Positions 26,333 to 51,787 of a stretch of 64,000 nucleotides of DNA are shown piece by piece. The notes beneath the pieces are model-generated. The model was given only the letters and a program-made list of their open reading frames with translations, did no database searches and was not told the origin of the DNA. Position 1 is the stretch's first letter. Each line of letters opens with the position of its first letter. The translations under genes and the position numbers were made by a program. This stretch comes from Kitasatospora atroaurantiaca (GTDB lineage: Bacteria > Actinomycetota > Actinomycetes > Streptomycetales > Streptomycetaceae): NCBI RefSeq assembly GCF_007828955.1, contig NZ_VIVR01000001.1, forward strand, positions 2,108,001-2,172,000, given 5' to 3'.

Positions 26333-26338
26333 GCCTGA

Positions 26339-27273: not shown

Positions 27274-27284
27274 CGCTTCGCCCC

Positions 27285-27779: not shown

Positions 27780-27841
27780 GCTCGACTCTCAATCCGGGGA
27801 CGCAGACCACCCGGAATCACCGGAGACCCGTCCCCTGAGAC

Positions 27842-27859
27842 ACCGCCCGTCGGGGCGGT
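27842..27859. terminator. short GC hairpin upstream of the major tail gene
   Basis: ACCGCCC and GGGCGGT pair across a GTCG loop in the 150-base gap between the tail terminator and major tail genes. It is too short to be sure; it may modulate readthrough. Confidence 0.35.
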
Positions 27860-27929
27860 CAGGAGTCAGCCCGTGCCGGCGGCCGGGCGTCCGTGCTTGG
27901 GTCTCCACGGTGAGATGGTGAGCAGCAGA

Positions 27930-28367: not shown

Positions 28368-28369
28368 GG

Positions 28370-29064: not shown

Positions 29065-29462
29065 CAGCCGACCTCATCCAGGGCCGCCCACTTGCCTGCC
29101 GCCCACTCCTGGAGCTGCACGAGCAGGGCACGCGTGTACTCGCTTGGCCCGCCGTCCATCAGGTCATGCCGGTTGAGGACCGCACGCTCCAACTCCGTCG
29201 CATCGATGGCGCTCAGGAAGGCGGCAGCCGCCGGACCTGGGTCCGGCGGCTCACCGATGCTGACGCGTGCCAGACCCGCCCACTCGTCGGAGGCGGTCGG
29301 CTTGAGCAGGAGGGCCAACTCCGGGAGCTGTCCGGCACGGTGGCTCAGGGTGTATGCCTGAACCTGCGACGCCAAGTCGCGGCCGTCGATCTCCAGGTGG
29401 GCGGTTGGTCCGTCGGCCACGATCCGGACGGGGCTCGGGTCATTGGAAAGGGTGGGGGTCAT
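29064..29462 (-). CDS. hypothetical head-tail region protein, 132 aa
   Basis: The N-terminal part contains VRIVADGPTAHLEIDGRDLASQVQAYTLSHRAG, a short beta-rich domain. The C-terminal half is helical (LMDGGPSEYTRALLVQLQEW). It is read in the same direction as the connectors and abuts the gp10-like gene. No function can be given beyond a probable structural role. Confidence 0.62.
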   Translation of the reverse strand: MTPTLSNDPSPVRIVADGPTAHLEIDGRDLASQVQAYTLSHRAGQLPELALLLKPTASDEWAGLARVSIGEPPDPGPAAAAFLSAIDATELERAVLNRHDLMDGGPSEYTRALLVQLQEWAAGKWAALDEVG

Positions 29463-29503
29463 GATCCGACCCTAGGAGCCGTGTCAGACAGGCCCGGCGC
29501 AGG

Positions 29504-29926
29504 TCAGGGCGGGGTGATCTCATCGAGCCTGGTGATGCGGGCAACCTCGACCGTGCTCGCCTCGGCAGGATCGAGGGCCTGCCACACGCGACCGGCCGTC
29601 CCGCCGGTACTGGATGACGACACTGCCACCTCCACACGGTCACCGCGCTGCGGGAGGGGAGCATGCAGCGGCGTGATGAGCCCGTACCAACTAGCCGTGT
29701 CATCAAGCCACTTGCCGCCAACCAGGTTCTCGACCGCAGCCAGTCCGTGAGCGGACAGCACCGCCCCGTTGCCCTCCCAGACCACGTCAGCCGGAATCGG
29801 CCCCAACAGTCCGGTCTCAACATCCAGCTGTGGAGTCCCGGTCGGGCGCGAGATCCGCACGCGGTCGACCATCACAGTGTTTTCCAGGTGCTGGCGGACG
29901 GCATCAAGGTCAACGGGAGTGGTCAT
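29504..29926 (-). CDS. head-tail connector-like protein, tandem copy 1 (140 aa)
   Basis: The pattern VRISRPTGTPQLDVETGLLGP, then WEGNGAV and LITPLHAPLPQRGDRVEV, then AGRVWQALDPAEASTVEVAR is shared with the next upstream gene, so the two are tandem paralogues. It resembles small head-tail connector proteins (DUF6093-like) of actinophages. It overlaps the upstream copy by four bases. Confidence 0.68.
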   Translation of the reverse strand: MTTPVDLDAVRQHLENTVMVDRVRISRPTGTPQLDVETGLLGPIPADVVWEGNGAVLSAHGLAAVENLVGGKWLDDTASWYGLITPLHAPLPQRGDRVEVAVSSSSTGGTAGRVWQALDPAEASTVEVARITRLDEITPP

Positions 29927-30369
29927 GCCGTCCCACCCGCCTTGTCGATACGCATCCAGGTCGCGCGCACGACTTCGACGGTGGCGGTCTCACCTGGGTC
30001 GAGGACCCTCCAGACGCGCCCAACGGCAGCCGTGTCCTCGCTGTGGACGACCGTCACTCGGTCGCCGATGGCTGCGACGGGCGCTGACAGCGGTGTGAAC
30101 AAGGTGTAGCGCGCGTCACCGTCGTCTCGGTATGGCTGTCCTTCCAGGCGCAGCACGATCCCTGGGCCGCTTGCGGGCCGGTGCGCCCCTGGGCCCTCGT
30201 ACACGATGACGTCCGGCCCAGGCACGTACTGGCCCGTTGTGGGGTCGAGGACCATGGGCCCCGGCCGGAAGATGCGCACGGTGTCGGTCAGGAGCTTGCG
30301 TTCAACAAGGGCTATCACGGAGTTGGGCAGGATGCCGCTCTGAGCGGAAGTGTCGGTGGGGGTGCTCAT
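29923..30369 (-). CDS. head-tail connector-like protein, tandem copy 2 (148 aa)
   Basis: It shares VRIFRP...G...DP.TG, VYEG.GA, TLFTPLSAPV..IGDRVTV and VGRVWRVLDPGETATVEV with the following gene. It is the last structural gene before the non-structural island. A single ancestral connector gene was probably duplicated. Confidence 0.68.
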   Translation of the reverse strand: MSTPTDTSAQSGILPNSVIALVERKLLTDTVRIFRPGPMVLDPTTGQYVPGPDVIVYEGPGAHRPASGPGIVLRLEGQPYRDDGDARYTLFTPLSAPVAAIGDRVTVVHSEDTAAVGRVWRVLDPGETATVEVVRATWMRIDKAGGTA

Positions 30370-30421
30370 GGTTCGAGCCTAGGCAGGGTGTCCGACACCC
30401 TTGCGGACAGCGGAGTCAGAC

Positions 30422-30453
30422 TCCCGTGGGCCGCGAGTAGACGGCCCACGGGA
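30422..30453 (-). terminator. terminator at the downstream end of the cargo island
   Basis: TCCCGTGGGCC and GGCCCACGGGA form a perfect 11-bp stem with a 10-base loop, 22 bases after the Nudix stop codon. It would end the leftward island transcript before the connector genes, so the island looks transcriptionally insulated from the late operon on this side. Confidence 0.68.
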
Positions 30454-30474
30454 ACTGCTGCCCACGGGGAGGCG

Positions 30475-30966
30475 CTACAGCGCAAGGCCGTCCTCGAGGT
30501 AGGCCCCGCCGTCCCCTGCCGCCCAAGCCTTATGACAGGCCAGGAGGTTGGCGGCGTTCGTCTCTTCCATCAGGCCAGGCGTGTTCGCCGCCTCCTGAGG
30601 GTCGTACCAGGTCCAGGCAAGGAGCTCATCGGCTGGCAGCTTGATCTGGTGCTCGTCGCCGGGATGAAGGCTGCCGAGAAAGGTGAAGATGTGGCACGGG
30701 TACGCGCCGGGGTTCATCTCAGCTCCCCGGTACAGGGGCTTGCGGCCGGTGACGTGGTGGACGGTGAGCAGGCGCGCGATTGCAACCGGGATGCCGAGTT
30801 CCTCTCGGGCCTCACGATCGGCACACTGCCAAGGTGTCTCCTTCTCGCCTTTCCCGCCAGGGACTACCCACGTGTTGGACCGGGCGTGGTGAACCAGGAG
30901 GACCTTGCCGTCGGTGCGAGGGATGTAGACGCCGGCGGCGGTGGAGGTGAGGACGCGATCGGCCAT
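30475..30966 (-). CDS. Nudix hydrolase
   Basis: The Nudix box is intact: GGKGEKETPWQCADREAREELG fits Gx5Ex7REUxEExG across residues ~34-56. The 163-residue protein is the size of a single-domain enzyme that cleaves nucleoside diphosphate-X compounds. It is the last gene of the island's leftward operon. The island also holds an NDK-like protein, a TS/hydroxymethylase-like protein and a glycosyltransferase-like protein, so a modified nucleotide or nucleotide sugar is a reasonable substrate class. That is inference. House-cleaning of oxidised nucleotides is the alternative. Confidence 0.88.
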   Translation of the reverse strand: MADRVLTSTAAGVYIPRTDGKVLLVHHARSNTWVVPGGKGEKETPWQCADREAREELGIPVAIARLLTVHHVTGRKPLYRGAEMNPGAYPCHIFTFLGSLHPGDEHQIKLPADELLAWTWYDPQEAANTPGLMEETNAANLLACHKAWAAGDGGAYLEDGLAL

Positions 30967-31039
30967 CAGGTGTCCGTTCTCGGGGTTGGAAGTGTGCGGC
31001 TCGGCGCTACAGGGTCGGGACTCGGTTGTGGTCGGCTGC

Positions 31040-32056
31040 TCAGAGTGCGGTCTCCAGGCAGTCGACCACTGTGGCCACCTGCTTGGAGGCGCGGTAGGGA
31101 TCGAGCCTGCGGATGCAGTCGTGAAGGAGCTCGGCCTTGTAGTCGAGCGAGGAGACCCGTAGATCGGCGACCCGCCGGGTGACGTCGTCCGAGGTGGAGA
31201 CCAGGAGCGCCGACGGGACGAATCGATCGATGGAGCGGATCTCCGTTGGGCCGAATGGGAGGCATCCGGCCAGCACAGCCTCGAAGAGGCGCTGGCTGAT
31301 GGCTCCGGTACGGGCGTATCGCTCTGGGGCCAGGAGCACGGTGGTGAGTGCTTGACGGTGGACCCGCTGAGACTCCGGGAAGCCCTTCCGTCCGGCGAAG
31401 TGGACGTGCGGCCATGCCTCCGTGTGAGTCCACTTCCCGACGACCTGGTGCAGGTGGATCCGTGCGGCGGGCGCGAAGTAGCGGTCGAACGCGGCGTCGC
31501 GGCCGTACTGGTTGCCGACGTAGACGAGTGGCCAAATGCGCTCCCCGGCCACGAGCTCGCGGGGATCGGCGCGGTCGAGTGCTTGATCGGCGACGGGTAC
31601 GAGAAGCGTTCGGGCACCGTCGGCCGGGTGTTGGGCTACGTCGAGGATCTGGACGGCGGGGTGTCGGCGCAGCGGGTCGTTCGGGGCGAGCGTGCGGTCC
31701 AGGTCCCAGATCAGGGTGGGGACGCCGAGCTTGTGGGTGTAGTGGTCGAGGAGTTCCTGTTGGCGGTGCAGGTCGCAGGTGTGTCCGGGGCTGCCGCAGG
31801 CGGTGGTATTGCGGCCGGGCAACGGCCATCGCCACTCCAGGAACAGCGCGTCGATGTTCGGGAGCCCGGCATCCCAGCTGAATTGCCCGGTCAGATCGTC
31901 GGCCGCTTCGGTCAGGTCCCGGTTCTCTTGGAGCAGTGTCAGCTGGAACTTGGTGGCAAGTCCGTTCAGGAGGGTCTTGCGCCAGGACCGGCCGCCGTCC
32001 GGGGTGTCGGTGATGCCGGGCCCGATGAACCCCCAGAAGCTGAACCCGAGCCGCAT
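31040..32056 (-). CDS. glycosyltransferase-like protein (GT-B type C-terminal motif)
   Basis: This 338-residue protein starts MRLGFSFWGFIGPG. Near the C-terminus, AISQRLFEAVLAGCLPFGPTEIRSIDRFVP followed by VSTSDDVTRRVADL resembles the nucleotide-sugar binding region of GT-B glycosyltransferases of the CgeB/group 1 type, where E-x7-E-like and (A/G)-G-C-x-P patterns occur. The N-terminal half (QFSWDAGLPNIDALFLEWRWPLPG) resembles an acceptor-binding Rossmann domain. The ATG overlaps the aldo/keto reductase stop (TGATG). The acceptor is unknown; a nucleoside-derived molecule or DNA base is a hypothesis. Confidence 0.65.
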   Translation of the reverse strand: MRLGFSFWGFIGPGITDTPDGGRSWRKTLLNGLATKFQLTLLQENRDLTEAADDLTGQFSWDAGLPNIDALFLEWRWPLPGRNTTACGSPGHTCDLHRQQELLDHYTHKLGVPTLIWDLDRTLAPNDPLRRHPAVQILDVAQHPADGARTLLVPVADQALDRADPRELVAGERIWPLVYVGNQYGRDAAFDRYFAPAARIHLHQVVGKWTHTEAWPHVHFAGRKGFPESQRVHRQALTTVLLAPERYARTGAISQRLFEAVLAGCLPFGPTEIRSIDRFVPSALLVSTSDDVTRRVADLRVSSLDYKAELLHDCIRRLDPYRASKQVATVVDCLETAL

Positions 32057-32847
32057 CACCGTTGCTCACTTTCGGGGTGATCAGCCGTGACTGCGGCGAC
32101 GAGAGCGGCCAGGTGTTCGGGGTTGCTGGTTCCTGGGATCGGGGCGACGTGCTCGCCGAGGTCGAGTAGCCAACGCAGGGCCTTGCCCGCGCTGTCCCCG
32201 GCATGCCGACCAGCGTTCAGGGGTCGGTAGGGGATGTAGGGGATGCCGTGCTGCGCGCAGTACGCCACGGCGGGGTCATCCGGCTCGTCGATGTTGAGGA
32301 CGTTCTGTACAGCGGCGATCGGGACGAAGGTGGAGGCTTCGGCAATCTGCCTTGGCGTGACCTTGGACAGGCCGATTGCTCCGATCTTGCCCTCCTCCCG
32401 GAGGGCGTCGAGTACGGCGACCTGGTCGGCGAGGGGAACGGTGGGGTCGATGCGGTGGAGGTAGCAGAGGTCGAGGCGTTCGGTCGCCAGCCGGCGCAGA
32501 GATCCCTCCACGGCTGCGCGTAGGTAGTCGGGTCGGCCTAGGGGGCTCCAGATGTTCGGAGCGGGCCGGACCATGCCGACCTTGGTGGCCAGCAGCAGGT
32601 CGTCGTCGTAGGGGTGCAGGGCCCATCGGATGAGCTCTTCGACGGTGTGGGGGCCGTAGGCGTCGGCGGTGTCGATGTGGTTGATGCCGAACTCGGCGAC
32701 GCAGGTACGCAGGAGGCGTAGCGCGGTGGTCTGGTCGGCGGGGGTTCCCCACGTTCCGGAGCCCGTGAGTCGCATGGTGCCGAAGCCAAGCCGGGCGACC
32801 TGCTTGCCCGCGATGGTGATGGTTCCGCCCGGGCGGTTGCCGCTCAT
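32056..32847 (-). CDS. aldo/keto reductase
   Basis: The 263-residue protein has the AKR signatures LGFGTMRL, then INHIDTADAYGPHTVEELI with the catalytic Asp and Tyr, LATKVGMVRP with the Lys, and LDLCYLHRIDP with the His position. GAIGLSKVTPRQIAEA and an NADPH-binding end (IPGTSNPEHLAAL) follow. It is slightly short for the family (usually 280-330). It would reduce a carbonyl with NAD(P)H. It sits between the glycosyltransferase-like and P-loop kinase genes with overlaps on both sides, so it works in the same pathway. Confidence 0.9.
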   Translation of the reverse strand: MSGNRPGGTITIAGKQVARLGFGTMRLTGSGTWGTPADQTTALRLLRTCVAEFGINHIDTADAYGPHTVEELIRWALHPYDDDLLLATKVGMVRPAPNIWSPLGRPDYLRAAVEGSLRRLATERLDLCYLHRIDPTVPLADQVAVLDALREEGKIGAIGLSKVTPRQIAEASTFVPIAAVQNVLNIDEPDDPAVAYCAQHGIPYIPYRPLNAGRHAGDSAGKALRWLLDLGEHVAPIPGTSNPEHLAALVAAVTADHPESEQR

Positions 32848-33446
32848 GCGTCGGCCGCCTGGAGGGCGGCGGTCACGGCGGCCTGGACTGCGGCGTCGTG
32901 GCCGGTGGAGGGCACGGGCATGTGGTGGAGCATCCTGTCGGCCAGGAGCTCGTGGAGGTGGCGGTCGACGGCGGCCCGGTAGTCGGTGTCGAGGTAGGCG
33001 GGGTCCTTGCGGGGGTGCTCACCGAGCGGGATCGACGGATCCAGAACCGTGGCGAGTAGCAGGGCGTGGTGGCGGGCGTGCAGGTCGGCCAGGCCCGCCA
33101 AGGGCTGGACCTCGTCGTCTTCGGGCTGCTCCCCGCGGTGGTGCTGGGCGGCGATGTAGTAGGCGAGGGCGTCGTGCGGAGTGCGGTCGACGAGGACCAC
33201 GTCGGCGGTGTGGCTGGCCTCCAGGGCGGCGGCCGCGCTGGCGGCAATGATCCACTCGGTGGAGTGGGCGGTGTGGCGCTGCATCTTGGGGAAGCCGAGT
33301 TCGGCCGCGCGCCGGGCCAGGCCACCGGTTCGGGTGACCGTGAGGCCGACAGCGCGCAGCTCCATCTCGACACGGCGGGCGATGGTCGTCTTGCCGGTGT
33401 GGTGGGTACCGGCGAAGCCGATCATGACGGGAGGTCGGTTCACCAT
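32844..33446 (-). CDS. P-loop kinase-like ATPase (AAA_28/NMP-kinase type), 200 aa
   Basis: VMIGFAGTHHTGKTTIARRVE is a Walker A loop at the very start, and DVVLVDRTPHDALAYYIAA resembles the DR(x) phosphate-binding segment of NMP or nucleoside kinases. The C-terminal part has a lid-like stretch and a basic helix. ATG has GAGGAG eight bases upstream and lies seven bases inside the exonuclease gene. With an NDK-like gene nearby, phosphorylation of a nucleotide intermediate is the simplest idea; NadR-type kinases share the motif. Confidence 0.72.
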   Translation of the reverse strand: MVNRPPVMIGFAGTHHTGKTTIARRVEMELRAVGLTVTRTGGLARRAAELGFPKMQRHTAHSTEWIIAASAAAALEASHTADVVLVDRTPHDALAYYIAAQHHRGEQPEDDEVQPLAGLADLHARHHALLLATVLDPSIPLGEHPRKDPAYLDTDYRAAVDRHLHELLADRMLHHMPVPSTGHDAAVQAAVTAALQAADA

Positions 33447-34054
33447 AGGGTTTGCTCCTCGTGGTCGGGAGCCGGGGCGGCGGGCGCTCCGGGCATCTTG
33501 GGCGGGACGGCGACCTGGATCAGGTCGTCCCAGGTGGCGTAGTGGTCTGCGAGGGTCATGAGGAGCAGGGCGGTCACGTGGGCGTCGTAGGCCGCGCGGT
33601 GGCGCTTGCCCTGCACGGTGCTGACGTCCAGGCCGGTGTGGAGGAGCAGCGCGTCCAGGCCGTAACCGGGGGCGTCTGACAGGGCCGCACGGGCCAGGCG
33701 CAGGGTGTCGATCACTCCGGCGGGCTGCCAGGTGGGCAGGTGCCGGGTGAGGACGCTGTACTCGACGCTGGCGTTGTGCGCCGCGATCCACACCCCGTCC
33801 AGGTCGGCCTGGACGGATGCCGCGATGCCGTCCCACGTGGGCGCGTTGGCCACGTCCTGGTTGGTGAGGTGATGGACGCCGGTGGCGAACCGGGTGATGG
33901 GCTGCGGCGGGCGGACCAGCGTCGCCCTGATCTGCTCGGGCCGGACGAGACCGCCGTCGATGGGGACGACGGCGATCTCGACCAGGTCGGGCGGGTTGGC
34001 ACCGTTGCCCTCAACGTCAACTACGAGCAGGCGGGGCCAGGTGCTGAGGTTCAC
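33440..34054 (-). CDS. DnaQ-like 3'-5' exonuclease (DEDDh type)
   Basis: The three exonuclease motifs are visible in 204 residues: Exo I LLVVDVEGNGANP (D and E), Exo II IAAHNASVEYSVL (D replaced by E or S, which is unusual), and Exo III HRAAYDAHVTALLLM with the H and D. The start is GTG with AGGAGA. Its role in an operon of nucleotide enzymes is unclear. It might remove unmodified or modified nucleotides, or act on RNA. Confidence 0.8.
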   Translation of the reverse strand: MNLSTWPRLLVVDVEGNGANPPDLVEIAVVPIDGGLVRPEQIRATLVRPPQPITRFATGVHHLTNQDVANAPTWDGIAASVQADLDGVWIAAHNASVEYSVLTRHLPTWQPAGVIDTLRLARAALSDAPGYGLDALLLHTGLDVSTVQGKRHRAAYDAHVTALLLMTLADHYATWDDLIQVAVPPKMPGAPAAPAPDHEEQTLW

Positions 34055-34061
34055 GGGTCTC

Positions 34062-35237
34062 CTAGGCGGCAGGGGCGGGCCACCCGAGGTCGGCCCGGCC
34101 GTGCCGGCGGTAGTGGTGCGGCTTGGTGCGGTCGTGGACCTGGTAGCCGAACGCGTGCTGGAGGGAGTAGCGCGGCGGTTCGTTCAGGCCCTCCACGATG
34201 ATGGCGCGATCGGTCACCTCAATGTCGCCGACGGCGCCGAGTGCACGAGCCTCGCGGGTGACGGTGGCCAAGTCCGGTGCCTGCCAGGCGTCCTTGCACA
34301 GCTTGAGTTGCGCGAGGGGGCAGATGTCGCACAGCTCGCGGATGCCGTAGTGGCCGTTGTAGTCCGCCTCTCCGTGGGCGTAGGCAACACCGCAGCTGGT
34401 CTTGCGGAAGAGCGGTCCCCAGGGCAGTTCGGCGTTCTCGGGCCGGTGGAACGCCCGGAGGATGCGCTGCTCGGACTCCTCCGGCATGATCTTGCGCCGG
34501 GCGGTGTCCTGGTAGGGCTCGGGCAGGCCGTTCTCGCGGTAGTACGCGGCGATCTCGTCGCGGAAGAACAGCCCGGTGAACACGGTGGCGTGGGCGTGCT
34601 GGGACAGCTCCAGCGCGCGTGCGATGTGGGCGTCCGAGTCGTTGAGACCGGGCACGATCGGCCGCCAGTACAGCACGGTCCGGTACGTCTTGGCGTGCTC
34701 GAACAGCGTCTTGAGGCTGGCGGCGGCGATCGCCGAGTCCACCGGCTCGATGCCGGGGTGGTCGATGCCGGAGTGGGTGACCAGCACGGTCAGCTTGATG
34801 TGGCGGTAGGAGTTGAGGACCGCGCAGTCCTCCGGTGTCACCCGCCACCTGGTGATCACCAAGACGTGGTTGGTCAGGCCCTGCTCGTCCAGGAGCCGCA
34901 GGACGTTGAAGGTGTGCGGCTTGACGACGGGCAGCATCGGGTCGGTGGCCCGGTTGAACAGCTGGATCGGCGTCTTGTGCGCCCGGAAGTAGTGGTGCCC
35001 GGTGAGGAGCTGCACGGCATCCTCGTCGCTCATGAGCGCCCGTGGCGTCTTGAGGCCGAAGTTGTCGAAGAGGTGCCGCACGCAGTAGCCGCATTCCAGC
35101 GGGCAGCCGATGATGTGGTTGAGCGACAGGCCGGACTTGCGGTACTCGATGACCTCGGCCAGCTCCGGCTTGAGCGTGGCGATCTGCTCGGTGGTCAGGA
35201 TGGGGAGCGGCCGGCGGGCCCTGATGACGGCGGTCAC
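34062..35237 (-). CDS. radical SAM enzyme, 391 aa
   Basis: HIIGCPLECGYCVRHLF near residue 40 holds the C-x3-C-x2-C motif that binds the radical SAM 4Fe-4S cluster. A C-terminal segment, ELCDICPLAQLKLCKDAW, has three further cysteines that may bind a second cluster or zinc. The barrel continues with LFNRATDPMLP and VITRWRVTPED. Enzymes of this kind make C-C or C-S bonds or open rings; the SplB-like N-terminal wording (IIGCPLECGYC) also occurs in DNA-lesion enzymes. The gene is eight bases upstream of the exonuclease gene. Substrate unknown. Confidence 0.9.
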   Translation of the reverse strand: MTAVIRARRPLPILTTEQIATLKPELAEVIEYRKSGLSLNHIIGCPLECGYCVRHLFDNFGLKTPRALMSDEDAVQLLTGHHYFRAHKTPIQLFNRATDPMLPVVKPHTFNVLRLLDEQGLTNHVLVITRWRVTPEDCAVLNSYRHIKLTVLVTHSGIDHPGIEPVDSAIAAASLKTLFEHAKTYRTVLYWRPIVPGLNDSDAHIARALELSQHAHATVFTGLFFRDEIAAYYRENGLPEPYQDTARRKIMPEESEQRILRAFHRPENAELPWGPLFRKTSCGVAYAHGEADYNGHYGIRELCDICPLAQLKLCKDAWQAPDLATVTREARALGAVGDIEVTDRAIIVEGLNEPPRYSLQHAFGYQVHDRTKPHHYRRHGRADLGWPAPAA

Positions 35238-35297
35238 GGTCTTCGGTCTCCTCTGGGTGGGGTCGTGAAGTGGTGCCAGCGCGTTGCGTGCTGTCGG

Positions 35298-35885
35298 TCA
35301 GGTCGGCTGGGAGGGCTGCGGCACGAGCGCGCGCCCGACTGCGCCCGTGTCATCGCGCGGGAACAGGCGCTCGAACTGGTCAGCGCCGAACCATGTTCCG
35401 AAGTCGCGGCACGTCGCAGCGCCGTCGTCCGAGGTGTGCACAAGGTTCTCGATCAGGCGGTGGTCTGCGCGGGCTGCCTCAAGGCTGTCCACGCCGAAGT
35501 CGGCGCGGATGGTGCCCTTGGCGGCCTGGGCCGGATCGAAGTGGCCGAGCAGGCCACGCAGCCGGGTTGGAGTATCGATTCCCTCCGGACCGCGGGCGAG
35601 TGCCACCATCACCGTCTGGCCCACATACGCGCGGCGCAGGCACGCCGGCACGTCAACGTCGAACCAATCCTGGTCCACAAGCATGTCCCAGTAGTGGACG
35701 AAGACCTGCCAGTCCTCGACGACTACGAGCTGCGTGTGGACGATCTCGGCGAACCTTCCGATGCGCTTGAGCACCGTGTCGGTCAGGTTCCGCCGCACGC
35801 AGTCGGGCTTGAGGAGGATCACGCTCCAGCGGGTCCAGTCGACGCCGTCGAGGACCTGGCCGGCCTGCGCAGGGCGCCGCTTCAC
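35298..35885 (-). CDS. nucleoside diphosphate kinase-like protein, 195 aa
   Basis: WSVILLKPDCVRRNL matches the NDK start (LxKPDxVxRxLxG). GHFDPAQAAKGTIRADFG matches TxPxxAxPGTIRxDF. The active-site histidine region is ENLVHTSDD, equivalent to NxxHxSDS. It is longer than bacterial NDK (about 140) because of a C-terminal extension (DFGTWFGADQFERLFP) and a middle insert. The GTG start overlaps the stop of the TS-like gene (GTGA) with GGAGGTGAGG just upstream. Coupling to the TS-like gene suggests that the product of one is the substrate of the other, or a later step. Confidence 0.85.
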   Translation of the reverse strand: MKRRPAQAGQVLDGVDWTRWSVILLKPDCVRRNLTDTVLKRIGRFAEIVHTQLVVVEDWQVFVHYWDMLVDQDWFDVDVPACLRRAYVGQTVMVALARGPEGIDTPTRLRGLLGHFDPAQAAKGTIRADFGVDSLEAARADHRLIENLVHTSDDGAATCRDFGTWFGADQFERLFPRDDTGAVGRALVPQPSQPT

Positions 35886-36883
35886 AGCCTCACCTCCACG
35901 GGCATGCGTCCCGGCCACCGGCGGGTGACCTGCCAGCGGAGCGCCGGGGAGAGCGCGGCGATCAGCGCCAGATCCACGGGATCGGCCGCACAGTGGACGA
36001 GCTGCCGCTGCACCTCGAACAGAAGGACCACCTGCTGCCAATACGGGGCGAGCCCCAGTACGGCAATGTCCTCGGGCGTGTACTGGATCCGGTTAAGACG
36101 CAGCGCCTCCTCGTGTTCCAGGACCTGGAGAATCTGCGGCCACCCGGTGTCCGTGGGCATCACCGGCGGGGCGAACCGCGGCAGCTCCGACCTCCGCCCA
36201 ATGCTTTCGGCGATGACCTGCTCGACGCGCGGCATGTCGGGCTCACCGATGTGCATCGACCCAACGTGGTGGGTGTAGGTGCCCAAGTCGACGCCGAGCA
36301 CGCAGGCGGTGAACTCCTGGATGAGCGTGAAGGAGAAAACGTCGGCGATCAGCCCACGGTCCGCGTCGTTGGCCCGCATATAGCAGACCATGTGCAGGCG
36401 GCCTTCGCGGAGCAGCAGATGTAGGGCGAGGAGGCACGGCACATCCGGGCTCTGCGGATCAGCCAGCTCTCCGGCGCGGAACACCGGGAGCACCGCGCGC
36501 TTAGAGTCCTTCTCTCCTTGCAGTAGCTCCACGGCTTGCTCGTAGGGCTGCTGAAAGATCCGGGCGCCGTACGCCGAGCCGTCGATGGTCACACCATCGT
36601 GGGAATCCCGGTGCCGGCGCGGTGCGTAGTAGCCGATCATGGCGAGGTCGCTGCGCCCGCCGAGATACCACAGCGCCTCAGCGAAGTGGTAGATCGGGTT
36701 GATCTTCCGCGAGTTGAGGAAGGGGGTCCGAGATCGGGGGTCCGACAGCTGGAAGCTGAGCCCCAGACTCTCCCTGCTCGTGTTGCCACGGGGGGCATTC
36801 CTGAACTCGTAGTCCTCACTGACGTGACGCAGGACCTCGATGTAGGCCCGTTCGAACGAAGGGAACATGGGTGGCGCAAGCAC
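35882..36883 (-). CDS. thymidylate synthase/(d)CMP hydroxymethylase superfamily protein
   Basis: The 333-residue protein carries the TS fold signatures in altered form: VPCLLALHLLLREGRLHMVCYMR with the putative nucleophilic Cys, then RANDADRGLIADVFSFTLIQEF, where TS has R-S-x-D-x-x-L-G-x-P-F-N. YTHHVGSMHIGEPDM takes the place of D-x-x-x-Y-x-N-H. The Asn-Asp pair and loss of LGxPFN set it apart from canonical ThyA and recall nucleotide hydroxymethylases of phage and nucleoside-antibiotic pathways. GTG start, with AAGGAGG upstream (an ATG five codons later is the alternative). As head of a seven-gene overlapping operon it may commit a pyrimidine nucleotide to the pathway. Confidence 0.8.
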   Translation of the reverse strand: MLAPPMFPSFERAYIEVLRHVSEDYEFRNAPRGNTSRESLGLSFQLSDPRSRTPFLNSRKINPIYHFAEALWYLGGRSDLAMIGYYAPRRHRDSHDGVTIDGSAYGARIFQQPYEQAVELLQGEKDSKRAVLPVFRAGELADPQSPDVPCLLALHLLLREGRLHMVCYMRANDADRGLIADVFSFTLIQEFTACVLGVDLGTYTHHVGSMHIGEPDMPRVEQVIAESIGRRSELPRFAPPVMPTDTGWPQILQVLEHEEALRLNRIQYTPEDIAVLGLAPYWQQVVLLFEVQRQLVHCAADPVDLALIAALSPALRWQVTRRWPGRMPVEVRL

Positions 36884-36934
36884 GATGCCTCCTTGGGCGT
36901 TCGAGCTGCTGGGATGGGTTGAGGTGGAAGGTGG

Positions 36935-36975
36935 GCCACCCCCGGCCGGTGTGCCTTTCACAGATCGGGGGTGGC
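36935..36975. terminator. 10-bp inverted repeat in the island's internal gap
   Basis: GCCACCCCCG and CGGGGGTGGC lie 21 bases apart in the 193-base gap between the 153-aa gene and the TS-like gene. A terminator, attenuator or operator for the biosynthetic operon would fit this position. Confidence 0.45.
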
Positions 36976-37076
36976 GTCTGGGTGAGGCCGACGGCCAGTG
37001 ACGGCCCCGCCTCAGACCCGCCAACGCGAGCGCCGAGCTTGCTGGTGAACGCATCGGGGCGGGGACATCTGATGGT

Positions 37077-37538
37077 CTACGGACCGGCCGGCGCAGCCGC
37101 GAGGCGGTTGGACAAGGTTTCCGGATTGGCATCCGTCAAAAGAAGCCGTGCAACGACCAGCCCGGCGCATGTTGCGCGAAGGTGCTGAAGCTGCACAGCC
37201 GGGAGAGCGCCGCGCAGTCGGCCCGCTGAATCCAGGAACGAGGCACATCGCGCGAGAAGCTGGCTGGCGGCAAGAGCCTCAGGACGGTGGCCGTGCCGAT
37301 CAGTCACCCTCTGCGCCATGGCATTGCACTCTCTGGCCAGCTCGCCGATGCCGGGATCCTCCTCCACCAGGGCGCCCCACCAGTCGAGTTCGGCCGCCAC
37401 GTACATCACGGCCCGCGCCCGGCAGAACCTCGGCAGGCCAGTCGTCGTGGTGGGAACGGGCCACTCGTACGCACCTGGCAGGGACTGGGCCCGTAGGCGG
37501 ACCTCGGCCGCAGCTTCGCGCCGAACTACATCGGCCAC
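37077..37538 (-). CDS. hypothetical island protein, 153 aa
   Basis: An all-helical protein: CRARAVMYVAAELDWWGALVEED, then ECNAMAQRVTDRHGHRPEAL and QHLRATCAGLVVARLLLTDANPE. There is no catalytic motif. The GTG start overlaps the upstream gene by 13 bases with GGGAG nearby. It belongs to the regulatory half of the island (with the HATPase). Function unknown. Confidence 0.62.
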   Translation of the reverse strand: MADVVRREAAAEVRLRAQSLPGAYEWPVPTTTTGLPRFCRARAVMYVAAELDWWGALVEEDPGIGELARECNAMAQRVTDRHGHRPEALAASQLLARCASFLDSAGRLRGALPAVQLQHLRATCAGLVVARLLLTDANPETLSNRLAAAPAGP

Positions 37539-38032
37539 GCTGACTCCCGTCCTGGGAGCACGGGCTCCGAACCCGTACCAGGCTGCACGGTGAACACGTA
37601 GACCGCCTGGTCGTCCGAGAAAGCCAACGAGTACGACTCCCCCCAGCGAAGCGCGTCCATCGCGATCTCCGGACCATCCTGATCAGTCAGCCAGAGGACC
37701 GGCGTGGCGGCGTGATCAGGGTCCAACTGCTCGGTGAGGTGCGTTACGCGCATCTGCATCCAGCGAACGGCCAGCCGAGCGTCAGCCATGGGCTGCGAAC
37801 CAAAGAGGGTCGGCCGACCAGCACCGTACCCGTAGGCGACCGCGTGGCACCAGAAGGCCGTCCGCGTCCGCTCTGGCGTCCGGAGTCTGGAGGAAGGAGG
37901 GCCGAGAGGCAGGCCGCCAGCGGGCGCACTCGCTGGCGGCTTGCTCGCTGGCCGACCTGGAGGTCGGGTTCCGGGCCGCGCCCGCCGACGCCCACCTCCC
38001 AGACCCAGCGCCTTCCTCACTAAGCCCTTCAC
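37526..38032 (-). CDS. hypothetical island protein, 168 aa
   Basis: The N-terminal 60 residues are an Arg/Gly/Pro-rich low-complexity stretch (MKGLVRKALGLGGGRRRARPG onward). The C-terminal domain has FWCHAVAYGYGAGRPTLF and VLWLTDQDGPEIAMDALRWGESYSLAF. The GTG overlaps the HATPase stop (GTGA). Its pairing with an ATP-binding anti-sigma-type protein suggests a partner or output role, but I do not recognise it. Confidence 0.62.
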   Translation of the reverse strand: MKGLVRKALGLGGGRRRARPGTRPPGRPASKPPASAPAGGLPLGPPSSRLRTPERTRTAFWCHAVAYGYGAGRPTLFGSQPMADARLAVRWMQMRVTHLTEQLDPDHAATPVLWLTDQDGPEIAMDALRWGESYSLAFSDDQAVYVFTVQPGTGSEPVLPGRESAWPM

Positions 38033-38472
38033 GCGGCCACCTCCGGCCTGCCGCTGCCCGCGGGCAGCAGCACCCTCGCCCACACCGTCTTGCGTCCCTT
38101 CGTCGTAGCCACGTCCATGTCGTCCGCCAGGCTCCGGACCAGTAGCAGGCCCCGGCCGTTCTCACCTCGCACGACGAGGTGCCTGGGAGGCAGCAGGTCC
38201 GGGCGCGGGTCGCTCACTTCGAGGCGGCAATCACCGTCGACCTCCTGTAGCCGAACCTGGACATCACCCCCCGGCTCGCTGGCGTGTTCGATCGCGTTCG
38301 TCACTAGCTCCGAGCAGATGATCAGCAGGTCATCTGCTCTGGAGCCCTGAAGTCCCCAATCGGCCAGCCGGGCCATCACCTGACGACGAGCAAGTCCGAC
38401 AGAGGCCGGCCACGCGGTAAACGTCATCTCCCAGACCCGAAGACACTGCCGCCTCTGTCTCACGGCCACCAT
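38029..38472 (-). CDS. HATPase_c anti-sigma-factor-like ATP-binding protein, 147 aa
   Basis: The GHKL boxes are visible: N-box SELVTNAIEHASEP, G1-like LEVSDPRPDLLPPR and G2 GENGRGLLLVRSLADDMDV. The length and lack of other domains match RsbW/SpoIIAB-like proteins that are abundant in Streptomyces as regulators. GGGAG precedes the chosen ATG (MVAVRQRR); an upstream ATG five codons earlier has no binding site. It diverges from the XRE-TPR regulator, and the two flank the island's control region. Confidence 0.82.
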   Translation of the reverse strand: MVAVRQRRQCLRVWEMTFTAWPASVGLARRQVMARLADWGLQGSRADDLLIICSELVTNAIEHASEPGGDVQVRLQEVDGDCRLEVSDPRPDLLPPRHLVVRGENGRGLLLVRSLADDMDVATTKGRKTVWARVLLPAGSGRPEVAA

Positions 38473-38699
38473 GCGCGTCGCTCCCATCGTCAGGAGCGGC
38501 GTGGCGCGCCCCGGCTGGTTCGCTTGCAGGGCCTAAGGGTTGCGGACCGGTGACGGCCGGGCGAGGACACGAAGCGGCCACTCAGCGGCCATTCAGTGGC
38601 CCAACGGCCCCCTGACGATGACGTTCCCACCGTGAACTGGCCACTTCCCGTCACGATCCCTCTACCGTGGGAGATCTCACGAGCCATCAGGGGGTCACG
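38473..38699. promoter_or_regulatory. divergent control region of the cargo island
   Basis: This 227-base gap lies between the leftward HATPase gene and the rightward XRE-TPR regulator and must hold promoters for both arms of the island. The near-repeat GGCCACTCAGCGGCCATTCAGTGGCC (about 38576-38601) is a candidate operator because it has two similar half-elements. No family A or B phage element is found here, so the island is probably controlled separately from the phage. Confidence 0.5.
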
Positions 38700-40010
38700 A
38701 TGAGAGCGCCCGGTAACGAGCACCTGTATGCGGCACGGGTGTCCCGGGGATGGTTTTCCCAAGAGAAGGCCGCAGAAGGCATCAGCCTGGCAGGTCAGGA
38801 CGCACTCAAGGACGAGAGCTTCACGGTCGGTGTCCGGACTTACCGGCGGTGGGAGACCCCCACACCCCCGTGGCCTCGCCCCGACTACGCCACGGCGCTA
38901 CGCGCCGCATTCAACCGCGGGCCAGAGCACCTGGGCTTCGTGCTTCCAGGAGGTTCCAGCGCCGAGCCGAGTGGACCAACACTCGACTCAGAAGTCATGA
39001 TCCCGCCTGTGAACCGTCGCGAAGCACTCGCCGCCGGCGCCGCCGCTCTCGGCCTGCCCTGGCTGTCCTCCACCAACTCCGCTCCGACCGGCCACCAAGA
39101 ATTACGGATCGGCCACGAGGAGATCAACGACCTCCGCGCCACAGCACTCGACCTCGACGCCATCGACCAGCGGTTCGGCGGCGATCGGCTGTGGCGGTCT
39201 GCCCGCTCGCACCTTTCGTGGGTTCACCACCTGATAGACCAAGGCTCATACACCGATGCGGTCGGACAGGAGCTCCAGGGTCTCGCTGGCGAACTGACAA
39301 CGTCTCTGGGCTGGTTCTGCTACGACGCGAACCAGCAGGCCGAGGCACGGGTCTACTTCTCCGAAGCCCTCAACACCGCGATGCTCGCAGGCAACGCGAC
39401 CCTTGCCACTCGGACGCTCTCGAACATGGCCAGACAAAGCGTCGACCTGGGCAAGCCACGTGAGGCCGTGCGATTCGCTCAGATCGCGCAGGGTCACGCC
39501 GCCGAGTGGCAGGCCCCGGCCCGGGTGTCAGCACTGCTGGCCATCCGCGAGGCCCAGGGCTACGCGCACATGGGCAACGAGGTGGCTTGCTCAACCGCCA
39601 TCAAGCGTGCCTGGAAGCACTTCGGCCGAGGCACCAGTGATCGCGACCCGGACTGGGTGGGTTTCCTCAACGAAGCCGAGCTGACGTGCCTTGAGGGAAT
39701 GTGCCGCCTGGACCTCGGGCAGCACAAACGGTCGGTACGCCTGCTCGAACGATCTTCCGCGCTCCAGGACATTGAGCACTCGCGGAACCGGGGCATGTGC
39801 CTGGCACGCCTGTCCTACGCAGCCGTGCAGGACCGGGATCTCGATCGGACAGTGGCAGCTGCTCAGGAGTCACTGCGCCTCATCCAGGGAGGCATGACTT
39901 CGACCAGGAACAGGCAACAACTCGTACTCGTCCGGGACAGCCTCGCCCCGTTCCACAAGAGCCCCGAGGTGCGGCACACCGCAGAACTTCTCACCGCGAA
40001 CATCGCCTGA
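38700..40010 (+). CDS. XRE-family regulator with C-terminal TPR-like domain
   Basis: The 436-residue protein starts MRAPGNEHLYAARVSRGWFSQ. Residues 1-70 resemble the HTH-like N-terminal of Streptomyces regulators that begin with ARxxRGWSQExxA and RTYRRWE. NRREALAAGAAALGLPWL near residue 105 is a Tat-like hydrophobic stretch often present as a linker in this family. The C-terminal 300 residues are TPR-type helical repeats (e.g. YDANQQAEARVYFSEALNTAMLAGN). AGGGGGTCACG precedes the ATG. The family often controls neighbouring accessory gene clusters, so it is the likely activator of this island. Confidence 0.82.
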   Translation: MRAPGNEHLYAARVSRGWFSQEKAAEGISLAGQDALKDESFTVGVRTYRRWETPTPPWPRPDYATALRAAFNRGPEHLGFVLPGGSSAEPSGPTLDSEVMIPPVNRREALAAGAAALGLPWLSSTNSAPTGHQELRIGHEEINDLRATALDLDAIDQRFGGDRLWRSARSHLSWVHHLIDQGSYTDAVGQELQGLAGELTTSLGWFCYDANQQAEARVYFSEALNTAMLAGNATLATRTLSNMARQSVDLGKPREAVRFAQIAQGHAAEWQAPARVSALLAIREAQGYAHMGNEVACSTAIKRAWKHFGRGTSDRDPDWVGFLNEAELTCLEGMCRLDLGQHKRSVRLLERSSALQDIEHSRNRGMCLARLSYAAVQDRDLDRTVAAAQESLRLIQGGMTSTRNRQQLVLVRDSLAPFHKSPEVRHTAELLTANIA

Positions 40011-40032
40011 CTCATGCGAAGGAGAGTTACCC

Positions 40033-40593
40033 GTGACCGATCTTGAACTGCACCACTACCGGGGTACCGCAGCTAAGGAGGTGCTCGATGAGCTCGTGGC
40101 GGTCTACACCGTGGTCTACGACGTTCCCCCATACATCGGCGACCCGTTCTTCTCCGTCGAGTCCTTCGCCGAGCGCCTCCAGGGCGCGCTGGAGATGAAC
40201 GGCTTCGAGACCGTCACCGCTCGGCTGGCCGGTGAGATGGTGGGCCTCGTGCACGGGGTCACCCTTCCCGCCGACCGGGCGTGGTGGACCAGCCTCGGCG
40301 AGGCCAGGCCGGCGGAGGTCCTCGCAGCGGCCGAGGCCGACCAGGTCTTCTGGCTCCGGGAGCTCATGGTCCTCCCCAAGTACACCGGCCAGGGGATCGG
40401 CCGACAGCTGCATGACGAGGTGGTCGCCGGCCGCGAAGAACCGTGGACTGCACTGACGTGCATCTTCGACAACGAGCCTGCCCGGAGTGCCTACCCCAGG
40501 TGGGGCTACGAGGTGATCGGCGGGCGCATCAAGCACGCTCCTGAATCCCCGGAGTACGACGCCATGATCCTGCGACCTACTCCGAGTCGATAG
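40033..40593 (+). CDS. GNAT N-acetyltransferase, 186 aa
   Basis: LRELMVLPKYTGQGIGRQLHDEV contains the acetyl-CoA-binding Q/RxxGxG/A motif (GQGIGRQLHDE), preceded by the beta-4 strand. LTCIFDNEPARSAYPRWGYEVIGG is the beta-7/alpha-4 region with the typical YxRxGF-like end. The GTG start has GGAGAG upstream and follows the regulator by 22 bases. The 3' end overlaps the convergent minor head gene by 17 bases, so the island was inserted or trimmed right at the phage gene's end. The substrate is unknown. Confidence 0.85.
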   Translation: MTDLELHHYRGTAAKEVLDELVAVYTVVYDVPPYIGDPFFSVESFAERLQGALEMNGFETVTARLAGEMVGLVHGVTLPADRAWWTSLGEARPAEVLAAAEADQVFWLRELMVLPKYTGQGIGRQLHDEVVAGREEPWTALTCIFDNEPARSAYPRWGYEVIGGRIKHAPESPEYDAMILRPTPSR

Positions 40594-41392
40594 CAGGCCT
40601 CGGCCCGAATGCCCGGCGGCACCGCGGATGAGAGATCGGCCACTCGGCCGCCTCGTCCACGGTGCGCAGCGTCCGGGCCGCCTTATCCGGGTCGGTGTGG
40701 GACGTCCAGCCGCAATCGGGCCCGTCGAAGACCTCGACGTACTTGACGCCGCTCTCCCGCGCCTGGTTGAGAGTGCCCGCGTTGTAGGCCACCGCGCTTT
40801 TCGCAAGCGTGGCGGCCTCGGCCCAAGCCCGGACCGGCACCCTGGCACCGTTGCGGTAGATGACGTACTCGAGGTGGCTGCTGGCGGCCAGCCGGTCGGC
40901 GAGCGCGCGGGCGGCCTGCCTCGCGGTCACGTTCCCGGCCGCGAGAAGGGGGACCTCGCGTCGGGCGGCCGCGCGGGCAGCACGGTATAAGGCATCGGCC
41001 ATCCGCCCAGTCTCCTGGCTTCGACGCAGGAAGTCGCCGTAGGAGTCGGCGGCCAGTGCCTGAAGGGCGTCACGGTGGATCAGTGTCCAGACAAAGCGGC
41101 TACCGGAGACTGAGGCAGCCGCCGTCGCGCCCTGCTCGTACAGGTGCGGCAGCTGGCGGCCGACGAACTGCACCGCTTCGTCGTCCACAGCCCTGTGGAA
41201 AGCCTCGATCGCCTGTTTGAACTCCTCCAGAGTTGCCAGGACGTGAGGCGTCCGCCAGTTGTCGGCGAAGGCGGCGATCACAGCGGCTTGGCGGGCGCTG
41301 AGGCGCTGCCAGGCGTCCTCCAGGACCGCGGCGACTCGGCGGGCCACCTGGTCAGCCTCGCCGGGCACCAGAGGCGGCCAGTCGTAGGGCAC
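40577..41392 (-). CDS. minor head protein (MuF-like C-terminal motif), 271 aa
   Basis: The C-terminal VEVFDGPDCGWTSHTDPDKA, then EWPISHPRCRRAFGPRP, matches the Cys/His pattern of SPP1 gp7/Mu F-type minor head proteins. The N-terminal 200 residues are helical. GTG start. It lies just downstream of the capsid block and just before the island. In related phages it often follows the portal gene, so the order here is rearranged. Confidence 0.75.
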   Translation of the reverse strand: MPYDWPPLVPGEADQVARRVAAVLEDAWQRLSARQAAVIAAFADNWRTPHVLATLEEFKQAIEAFHRAVDDEAVQFVGRQLPHLYEQGATAAASVSGSRFVWTLIHRDALQALAADSYGDFLRRSQETGRMADALYRAARAAARREVPLLAAGNVTARQAARALADRLAASSHLEYVIYRNGARVPVRAWAEAATLAKSAVAYNAGTLNQARESGVKYVEVFDGPDCGWTSHTDPDKAARTLRTVDEAAEWPISHPRCRRAFGPRPAIDSE

Positions 41393-41398
41393 GGCCGC

Positions 41399-41722
41399 CT
41401 ACCGAACGCGGCGAGTCGGCACAAGGGCGGCGACGGCCAGGTGCGGCGCTGTGTCACCGTTCACCGCATCGTCCGGGCCGGGGTTGGCCTGAATGCCGGC
41501 AAGCTGCCTCTCCAGGCCGGTCAGGTTGCCGGTCTGGTCCATGGTGACCACACCGTCAACCACCAGGCGCAGCGGCTCGGCGAGCAGCCTCGCGCGGCGC
41601 TCGGACAGCACCTCCAGGGCGACAGCGCGGGCGCTGCGCAGGCGCTCGTACCGGCCACTGAGTTCGGTCAGGTCGGTGGGGCCGAGCTGGGCGAGCAGCC
41701 AGGCCCGAACGGTGTCGTCCAC
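41399..41722 (-). CDS. hypothetical head protein, 107 aa
   Basis: MDDTVRAWLLAQLGPTDLTELSGRYERLRSARAV and a beta segment (ARLLAEPLRLVVDGVVTMDQ) are visible. GGAGACACCC precedes the GTG start. It sits between the minor head gene and small capsid-region genes, as head-completion proteins do. No family recognised. Confidence 0.65.
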   Translation of the reverse strand: MDDTVRAWLLAQLGPTDLTELSGRYERLRSARAVALEVLSERRARLLAEPLRLVVDGVVTMDQTGNLTGLERQLAGIQANPGPDDAVNGDTAPHLAVAALVPTRRVR

Positions 41723-41787
41723 GGGTGTCTCCTGTCGGGTGTGTCTGAAGCCCGGCACCGCAGGGTGCCGGGCCTCGTTGATTCGGG

Positions 41788-42000
41788 CTACTCGGGGTCG
41801 ACCCACCGGATAGTGGTGGCTCCGCCGTGCCCGTGGATGGACTCGGCCATTTCCAGGGACGGCCACACGACCGTGGACGGCCGGTCGCCGAGCCACTGCA
41901 CCACGGCGGTTCCGGCGCTGAAGAGCACGCCCTCGGCTACCAGCCCGGTGCCGGAGACACCGGATACGTCGACCGCTCGGTCCAGGACGAACCTACGCAT
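41788..42000 (-). CDS. conserved small phage protein, 70 aa
   Basis: MRRFVLDRAVDVSGVSGTGLVAEGVLF, then VVQWLGDRPSTVVW and ESIHGHGGATTIRWVDPE, is a pattern conserved in small head-region proteins of actinophages. Function is unknown. It overlaps the end of the 68-aa gene by eight bases. Confidence 0.72.
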   Translation of the reverse strand: MRRFVLDRAVDVSGVSGTGLVAEGVLFSAGTAVVQWLGDRPSTVVWPSLEMAESIHGHGGATTIRWVDPE

Positions 42001-42199
42001 CGGCGGCAGGCTCCTCATCCGCAGTGCCCGTGCTCTCCCCCTGCTCCTGCTCCCCCAGCGCGCCGCCAGGTTCCCAGGCGTCGGGGTGGGTGATCAGTGC
42101 GGCCACCTTGGGCTCGGGTTCATCTCCTGGCTGGAGGGTGATCCGCTCGTGGGTGACCGGGTGGTCGAGGTGGACCGCGGCGGCCAGGCGGGCGCCCAT
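41993..42199 (-). CDS. small head-region protein, 68 aa
   Basis: The ATG overlaps the major capsid stop (TGATG). MGARLAAAVHLDHPVTHERITLQPGDEPEPKVA is followed by an acidic tail (EQEQGESTGTADEEPAADA). The DNA-binding or connector role of such small proteins after the capsid gene is unproven. Confidence 0.65.
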   Translation of the reverse strand: MGARLAAAVHLDHPVTHERITLQPGDEPEPKVAALITHPDAWEPGGALGEQEQGESTGTADEEPAADA

Positions 42200-51780: not shown

Positions 51781-51787
51781 CCTCTGC

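Follow-up and report, generated by a model that had tools for sequence, protein, structure and literature searches.

A radical SAM, exonuclease and kinase cassette occupies an exchangeable prophage slot in Kitasatospora atroaurantiaca and may act in phage-host conflict

We analyzed a 64,000-nucleotide stretch of the Kitasatospora atroaurantiaca genome (the window), part of the 7.87-Mb single-contig chromosome of this member of the Streptomycetaceae (G000:C1:2108001-2172000), and focused on an island of nucleotide-chemistry genes within a prophage. The prophage is genuine, since PHROGs profiles identify minus-strand late genes in the order terminase, portal, capsid, neck, tape measure, and tail fibre, as well as integrases. 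Between a phrog_13779 gene pair (29504-30369) and a MuF-like gene (40577-41392), we counted 13 nonstructural genes (30475-40593), 11 of them leftward and 2 rightward. The original prediction, made from the DNA letters and their open reading frames (ORFs), had placed about 13 such genes between connector and head genes, and PHROGs confirmed both flanks. The proposed families also held under profile search, with NUDIX, Aldo_ket_red, RNase_T, NDK, and Thymidylat_synt matched by Pfam, as did the picture of a coherent nucleotide-chemistry operon inside the late operon, comprising a hydroxymethylase, kinases, and a possible glycosyltransferase of the hydroxymethylcytosine type. Judged from these families, a nucleotide-modifying function of the cassette is well supported. 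The island genes are listed here with the E values of their matches; identities refer to L108, a stretch of a related prophage in genome G028.

30475-30966, minus strand: Nudix hydrolase (PF00293, 1.3e-17)
31040-32059, minus strand: glycosyltransferase (GT)-like protein, distantly matching T4 DNA beta-glucosyltransferase in the C-terminal half of that enzyme
32056-32847, minus strand: aldo/keto reductase (AKR; PF00248, Aldo_ket_red, 3e-50)
32844-33446, minus strand: P-loop nucleoside/nucleotide kinase-like protein, core gene (P-loop; AAA_28 0.0033, below cut-off)
33440-34054, minus strand: DnaQ-like DEDDh 3'-5' exonuclease, core gene (PF00929, RNase_T, 4.1e-16)
34062-35237, minus strand: radical S-adenosylmethionine (SAM) enzyme (rSAM), core gene (CxxxCxxC at C45/C49/C52 and predicted fold)
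35298-35885, minus strand: nucleoside-diphosphate-kinase (NDK)-like protein (PF00334, 1.7e-15)
35882-36883, minus strand: predicted MilA-like cytidine monophosphate (CMP) 5-hydroxymethylase of the thymidylate synthase (TS) type (5jnh/5b6d CMP 5-hydroxymethylase, 7.4e-78)
37077-37538, minus strand: small protein, no Pfam family above cut-off (71% identical in L108)
37526-38032, minus strand: small protein, no Pfam family above cut-off (61% identical in L108)
38029-38487, minus strand: HATPase, RsbW-like anti-sigma kinase type (phrog_12354, 2.2e-19; NF041045, 2.3e-14, below cut-off)
38667-40010, plus strand: XRE-TPR regulator, NsdA family (NF053720, 8.6e-88; 295.7 bits against a cut-off of 75)
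40033-40593, plus strand: GNAT-like protein, labelled by eye (95% identical in L108)

The TS-like gene starts with GTG behind AAGGAGG (read by eye), with an alternative ATG at 36868; residues are counted from the codon after this ATG. Its product matches Pfam Thymidylat_synt (1.1e-12), and its nearest PDB relatives are the MilA entries (7.4e-78), with true thymidylate synthases reaching only 4.3e-9. For TS and rSAM, residues were counted over rows in which the match covered at least 70% of the query, after removal of duplicates (L023, L029, L030, L031, and L044), the copy in the window itself (L074), and rows interrupted by internal stops (L038 for TS; L054, L066, and L079 for rSAM). The equivalents of the catalytic MilA residues Cys155 and Glu68 (C144 and E63) and of Asp186 (D175) are each present in 37/37 rows. 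The equivalent of Lys133 (K122) is likewise kept in 37/37 and that of Ala176 (A165) in 33/37, with Gly in the other 4 and Ser never; the window has both residues, whereas T4 gp42 aligns with Arg and Ser at these sites. In the MilA study (PMC5175136), Lys133 and Ala176 favor CMP over deoxycytidine monophosphate (dCMP), a substrate that MilA also accepts but 5-fold less well, and the presence of Asp186 is linked to cytosine rather than uracil substrates. The equivalent of MilA Tyr218, a ribose contact, is replaced in 37/37 rows (by Asn in 23, Gly in 12, and Ala and Cys in one each), and we therefore name the protein MilA-like rather than assign it as MilA. By sequence it is closest to MilA, with a CMP-type active site, and is predicted to convert CMP to 5-hydroxymethyl-CMP. 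Distant relatives from the TS superfamily occur in 447 of 50,697 phage records, the best at 31.9% being a "pyrimidine hmase."

In the radical SAM enzyme, C45/C49/C52 and four further cysteines (282, 303, 306, and 314) are invariant in 52 aligned rows, and the latter likely form a second iron-sulphur site. Pfam gave no match to this protein, sequence and profile searches gave no PDB relative, and NCBIfam and PADLOC returned no viperin name. An AlphaFold2 (AF2) model (pLDDT 82.6) has its closest fold match in spore photoproduct lyase (Z 13.6, rmsd 3.6, 245 residues aligned), entries of which score Z 13.3 to 13.6, followed by lipoyl synthase (12.6), pyruvate formate-lyase (PFL)-activase (12.5), RlmN, and viperin (about 11). 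This match of a predicted structure shows the superfamily but not the substrate. Viperin-like chain termination was considered for the rSAM and set aside; viperin ranks below the other four enzymes in the fold search. The exonuclease residues D13, E15, D116, H152, and D157 are kept in 57/57 rows, and the kinase P-loop is kept in 48/50, with a Nostoc member matching AAA_28 at 6.4e-11. A PDB profile search for the kinase yielded just generic P-loop and chance matches (E 0.005 and worse). Separately, we observed broken or partial rSAM copies within otherwise recognizable clusters (L026, L027, L069, L072), which points to decay of the cluster in part of the genomes; G1068 has two rSAM copies near both chromosome ends (C1:14525-15692 and 10131863-10133030), each matched in two pieces.

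The catalytic residues of the accessory enzymes are similarly preserved: seven NDK residues, including the catalytic His, in 39/39 rows; the AKR tetrad D59, Y64, K89, and H131 in 38/38; and a complete Nudix box in the window protein. Many Streptomyces versions (L078, L084, L133, and others) have a long NDK gene of about 344 to 353 amino acids with two NDK matches. The GT-like protein had no Pfam match and no significant PHROGs match. Its five-row profile recovered a sole PDB molecule at E<=1, T4 DNA beta-glucosyltransferase (E 0.0058 over about 87 columns, a weak match), and hhalign of the two gave a probability of 32.5% (E 4.7e-4 as a single comparison), against 0.3% for one GT4-family control. 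Within the matched stretch, Arg257 and Glu260 are invariant in 6/6 sequences; the Arg and Glu of this stretch in the T4 enzyme bind uridine diphosphate (UDP)-sugar. An AF2 model built from five sequences (pLDDT 49.5) was too poor for a fold search. The resemblance to the T4 enzyme is suggestive and weak.

We next consider where these genes occur. The original prediction had proposed looking for the same gene order in other actinobacterial genomes and prophages, and this search succeeded. TS relatives with 57 to 65% identity are present in 10 of 69 other genomes searched in the genus, mostly in the order TS-NDK-rSAM-DnaQ-kinase-AKR. A pattern scan for the rSAM, sensitive to close relatives, found 42 loci in named genomes (Streptomyces, other actinobacteria, Pseudomonas, Rhodanobacter). 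By tblastn, 37 plasmid records were matched, those of Rhizobiales, Gluconobacter, and Nostoc among them; some of the 37 matches are weak or partial. Four viral contigs have the rSAM, this prophage among them, and a two-pattern scan found the GT among viral contigs in this prophage only. Neither gene was found in the 50,697 phage records (0/50,697 for the rSAM at E 1e-5 and for the GT at E 0.1), and most copies found are chromosomal or plasmid-borne, so the proposal of a phage pathway did not hold. At a threshold of E<=1e-40, the rSAM is present in 33/394 genomes of the family (this genome included), 1/296 in a draw from the phylum (this genome), 1/398 in a Pseudomonadota draw (the draw's own centre genome), and 3/249 in Pseudomonas (centre genome included). 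It is an accessory gene with a patchy distribution.

Gene content was compared across 54 actinobacterial and 13 other loci. These counts drop 99.9 to 100% duplicates (L023, L029, L030, L031, L044, L131), the window's own prophage (L074), and repeats (L136, L137), and keep L068 and L073, which are 97.9% alike, as well as the broken copies L026 and L027. Among the actinobacterial loci, DnaQ is present in 52, the kinase in 48, AKR in 43, TS in 42, NDK in 41, and GT in 6; the other loci have the kinase in 13, DnaQ in 12, AKR in 5, a SAMHD1-like HD protein in 4, and TS and NDK in none. Absences are upper limits, because four loci (L038, L052, L054, and L075) stop less than 4 kb from the rSAM. Carriers of the six-gene order (33/54 actinobacterial loci) include chromosomes, plasmids, and a small number of prophages; the order rSAM-DnaQ-kinase is found in 48/54 actinobacterial and 12/13 other loci. 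Because the same gene order recurs in independent genomes, the island families were not assembled by chance. The steadiest part is the trio of rSAM, exonuclease, and kinase; the front end that would supply hydroxymethyl-CMP is seen in actinobacteria only. Upstream of the rSAM in two of the TS-less loci, L042 and L060, the proteins matched helix-turn-helix regulators only, and these two loci yielded no stand-in for TS. Accessory nucleotide hydrolases also occur: a MazG-like protein (below the Pfam cut-off) and a four-Nudix protein in L132, and the Nudix protein in the window.

The position of the cassette between phage genes is itself conserved while the contents change. In blastn against L108, the window matched at 26247-30400 (89%) and 37121-43045 (84.7%), with no match between. 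The G028 prophage keeps the XRE, GNAT-like, HATPase, and two small genes, and the payload alone is exchanged:

30401-37120, no strand assigned: exchangeable payload of 6.7 kb; the G028 prophage has 9.85 kb of different genes here
L108:4154-14003 and L109:2317-18216: second payload type found in this slot, with QueC, QueE-like rSAM, reverse transcriptase, second rSAM, GT2, and 5'-3' exonuclease in common

The G028 payload (10 of 11 ORFs scanned) encodes FolE, QueC, a small rSAM, a reverse transcriptase, a 5'-3' exonuclease, two glycosyltransferases (GT2 and GT4-conflict), another rSAM, PIG-L, and DUF6884. A comparable payload, including QueC, is found in the G001 prophage (10 ORFs scanned); the small rSAM of both payloads is presumably QueE-like. 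This alternative recalls the preQ0/7-deazaguanine sets (FolE, QueC, QueE), with FolE and QueC in G028 and QueC in G001, but adds the reverse transcriptase, 5'-3' exonuclease, and glycosyltransferases; a literature search found no description of a QueC/rSAM/reverse-transcriptase payload combination. Common to both payload types are nucleotide or base synthesis, radical SAM, exonuclease, and glycosyltransferase. A module of the window type also lies beside the same phage genes in Streptomyces xylophagus (L044/L075), on the neck side only, the other side being beyond the stretch covered or without a MuF match, and, inverted, in S. filamentosus (L048), where MuF is matched in part. L087 has no cargo, its MuF gene being followed directly by the neck-side relative, and L115 has one ORF between the MuF and neck-side genes. 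We did not count L110-L114 and L116 as slots, because several of their MuF copies are fragments. Prophage cargo (moron) hot spots carry exchangeable defence systems; the slot resembles them in its constant place between MuF and neck genes, swapped payload, and conserved flanks, and differs in that its payloads are biosynthetic nucleotide-chemistry operons with one common regulator block. A Nocardia plasmid locus (L079:9947-18699) mixes features of both payload types: after an rSAM (internal stop), DnaQ, kinase, and AKR come a glycosyltransferase and two further exonucleases, one 5'-3' and one 3'-5', the latter being the second of its polarity in the locus.

The regulator block lies at the end of the island opposite the Nudix gene, where an HATPase and an XRE-TPR regulator had been predicted. 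The XRE-TPR protein belongs to the NsdA family, and the models nearest the HATPase are anti-sigma proteins of the RsbA/RsbW type, with scores under their cut-offs. In L085, a protein annotated GNAT lies next to the regulator, and the GNAT-like protein of the island matches it at 30%.

To place the core among its neighbours in other phyla, we judged product names within about 9 kb of it on eight distinct nonactinobacterial plasmids (L131 uncounted). Genes with named anti-phage functions were found in 4/8: a CBASS-like set (patatin, DncV-like, ThiF) in S. meliloti; Shedu and ABC-3C in Rhizobium; ABC-3C, Shedu, and a QueC-like gene in S. chiapasense; and an anti-phage dGTPase with a TIR protein in A. 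vitis. In contrast, none was found in six 40-kb control stretches (0/6), each taken from a different one of these plasmids (Labrenzia and Nostoc without a control); the 211 features of the stretches included one VapC. PADLOC applied to 50 proteins around four gammaproteobacterial loci (three Pseudomonas and one Rhodanobacter) reported HerA (8.8e-161), SIR2, SngA/SngB, PD-Lambda-3_B, PDC-S65, and BrxD. In Pseudomonas L137, a SIR2-like gene is followed by HerA and then, directly downstream, by the core. The Rhodanobacter flank also has ordinary genes, e.g., urocanase.

In our reading, the island is a mobile nucleotide-modification cassette, a replaceable cargo in a fixed prophage slot, and we propose as most likely, at slightly less than an even chance, that it is a phage-host conflict (anti-phage or superinfection) system. 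We favor a defensive role because of the mobility of the cassette, the exchange of payloads in the slot, the accessory hydrolases, the exonuclease, and the defence genes near some of the distant copies. The product would probably be an altered cytidine nucleotide. The families, conserved catalytic residues, gene order, mobility, payload exchange, and defence neighbours are observed; the chemistry past the CMP-type active site, the nature of the product, and the defensive role are inferred. As a working mechanism, the XRE-TPR/HATPase block would control the operon and the MilA-like enzyme would convert CMP to 5-hydroxymethyl-CMP, which, or a product of which, the P-loop kinase and NDK would raise to the di- or triphosphate. 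The rSAM, with the aldo/keto reductase, may alter base or sugar, and the hydroxymethyl group may be glycosylated by the GT-like protein. The cytidine analogue made in this way would harm phage nucleic-acid synthesis, and the DEDDh exonuclease and Nudix hydrolase would excise or destroy it, sparing the host.

Several observations weigh against this proposal. On the remaining four of the eight plasmids, only an N-6 methylase (Labrenzia) or toxin-antitoxin genes (Mesorhizobium, Gluconobacter, and Nostoc) were found. Moreover, the plasmid comparison consists of product names in few records, and the gammaproteobacterial PADLOC scan had no control. No named anti-phage gene was found on the Streptomyces plasmids (0/5 inspected, of six with a close rSAM; all with the full set), two of which have MazE7/Doc pairs. 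PADLOC had no model matching the rSAM, TS, NDK, AKR, GT, or kinase, and matched DnaQ and Nudix through a CRISPR-associated DEDDh model or candidate (PDC) models only. We know of no phage-resistance phenotype for the cassette. TS is missing from 12/54 actinobacterial and 13/13 other loci, and therefore hydroxymethyl-CMP cannot be the substrate everywhere; the actinobacterial loci L069 and L072, with partial rSAM copies, have neither DnaQ nor kinase. Finally, the kinds of regulator found here (NsdA family, HATPase, and, in relatives, the DUF6415 "natural product biosynthesis protein") occur with specialized metabolism, and the other loci adjoining a MuF relative (L110-L114 and L116, scanned as a pool) have lanthipeptide-type and other biosynthetic genes.

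The last points bring in the main rival, a nucleoside-type specialized-metabolite pathway starting from hydroxymethyl-CMP as in mildiomycin or bacimethrin, with any phage effects incidental. A nucleoside-antibiotic route had been suggested as fitting the island, and the idea survives, held in place by the kinship to MilA and by the regulators; we consider it unlikely, if the strongest competitor. The TS is nearest MilA and shares with MilA/BcmA the Cys, the Glu, the cytosine Asp, the ribose-type Lys and Ala, and the His; NsdA-type and DUF6415-type neighbours are in keeping with it; AKR, GT, and Nudix would suit tailoring; and genes like those for ribosomally synthesized and post-translationally modified peptides (RiPPs) are present at other loci adjoining a MuF relative. 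Unlike MilA/BcmA, however, the Tyr218 position is Asn, Gly, Ala, or Cys, and the rSAM, DnaQ, kinase, and NDK neighbours differ from what we take to be the mildiomycin gene set. Among the 13 genes, including two small proteins without a family, we recognized no transporter, resistance gene, or MilB-type N-glycosidase. An invariant DEDDh exonuclease is odd for a small-molecule pathway, and the core stands without hydroxymethylase in every nonactinobacterial locus compared (13/13), several of them among defence genes (4/8 plasmids of other phyla and one Pseudomonas).

T4 glucosylates hydroxymethylcytosine, and base hypermodification of this kind had been raised for the island: hydroxymethyl-dCMP would be phosphorylated, incorporated, and glucosylated, shielding the virion DNA of the prophage. 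Like the T4 system (gp42 and beta-glucosyltransferase), the cassette has a hydroxymethylase-type TS and, in six loci, a protein with a stretch weakly matching beta-glucosyltransferase; GT directly precedes TS in L033, L034, L068, and L073, and T4 has both genes side by side. TS-superfamily relatives are common in phages, and MilA accepts dCMP besides CMP. Nevertheless, the active site is of the ribo type, with the CMP-type Lys/Ala of MilA (Gly for Ala in 4/37) rather than the Arg/Ser of T4 gp42, and the rSAM/DnaQ/AKR/kinase set, the optional GT (6/54 actinobacterial loci), and the absence of rSAM and GT from phage records set the cassette apart from T4. Among viral contigs the GT is confined to this prophage, and a closely related prophage has another payload instead. 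Hypermodification of the T4 type is less likely than the readings above, and we leave it a small share on account of the beta-glucosyltransferase match. Still less probable, and very unlikely, is a nucleic-acid repair or RNA-processing module in which a lesion-reversing rSAM like spore photoproduct lyase would work with the exonuclease and an end-kinase. The top fold matches and the presence of exonuclease and P-loop kinase in the core speak for such a module, but lipoyl synthase, PFL-activase, and viperin follow closely in fold score, and the rSAM sequence profile matches none of these folds. Nucleotides are the substrates of the TS, NDK, and Nudix families, and a patchy accessory distribution also tells against repair.

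Returning to the conflict-system proposal, we also entertain, as a speculative and doubtful elaboration, that the rSAM-DnaQ-kinase core is an undescribed viperin-independent route to antiviral nucleotides. Actinobacteria would feed it hydroxymethyl-CMP, some alphaproteobacteria would pair it with a SAMHD1-like hydrolase, the exonuclease would clean host nucleic acids, and one prophage slot with its regulator block would swap payloads of the hydroxymethyl-cytidine and preQ0 types. Prokaryotic viperins are linked with nucleotide kinases, and the cassette follows the same radical SAM and nucleotide kinase logic, with cytidine chemistry in its actinobacterial form. It differs in that no family library or sequence search of the PDB recognizes a viperin in its rSAM, whose predicted fold is nearer to spore photoproduct lyase (Z 13.6 versus about 11) and which has a second Cys set; in addition, a DEDDh exonuclease accompanies the rSAM in nearly all loci. 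A literature search, with most subscription journals outside its coverage, found no paper describing the module. If the conflict-system reading is correct, the core would be a second radical SAM route in bacterial small-molecule antiviral immunity, unrecognizable as viperin by sequence and equipped with its own exonuclease; the hydroxymethyl-CMP step of nucleoside antibiotics would also serve mobile conflict cassettes; prophages would trade complete nucleotide-chemistry operons through a single site governed by a common regulator; and the modified cytidine nucleotide could be searched for directly by liquid chromatography-mass spectrometry (LC-MS).

The remaining features of the prophage, identified with PHROGs unless noted, are as follows.

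22133-26332, minus strand: tape measure
28633-29064, minus strand: neck protein
29504-30369: phrog_13779 pair, adjoining the neck protein
30423-30452, minus strand: perfect 11-bp hairpin (30452-30442 with 30433-30423), 3' of the Nudix gene, read by eye
40577-41392: MuF-like minor head protein
42199-43248, minus strand: major capsid, with decoration and scaffold genes also found
47431-49281, minus strand: portal
51788-53656, minus strand: terminase
60569 and 62160: two integrases

A terminator had been predicted after the Nudix gene. The hairpin is present there, but it has no T-run and was not reported by a terminator scan. A search for attachment (att) sites compared the last 100 bases of the window, which hold the end of a tRNA-Met gene, with the rest of the window and found no direct repeat of 18 bases. 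Within the head block, a Ser/Thr-kinase-like ORF (44574-46007; phrog_2361, 1.2e-29) lies between the scaffold and portal genes, and a phrog_7858 protein at 54775-56199 has a weaker amidoligase-like match. The GC content falls to 0.564 at 50001-52000 (most 2-kb steps, 0.64 to 0.72), where three rightward ORFs adjoin the terminase gene.

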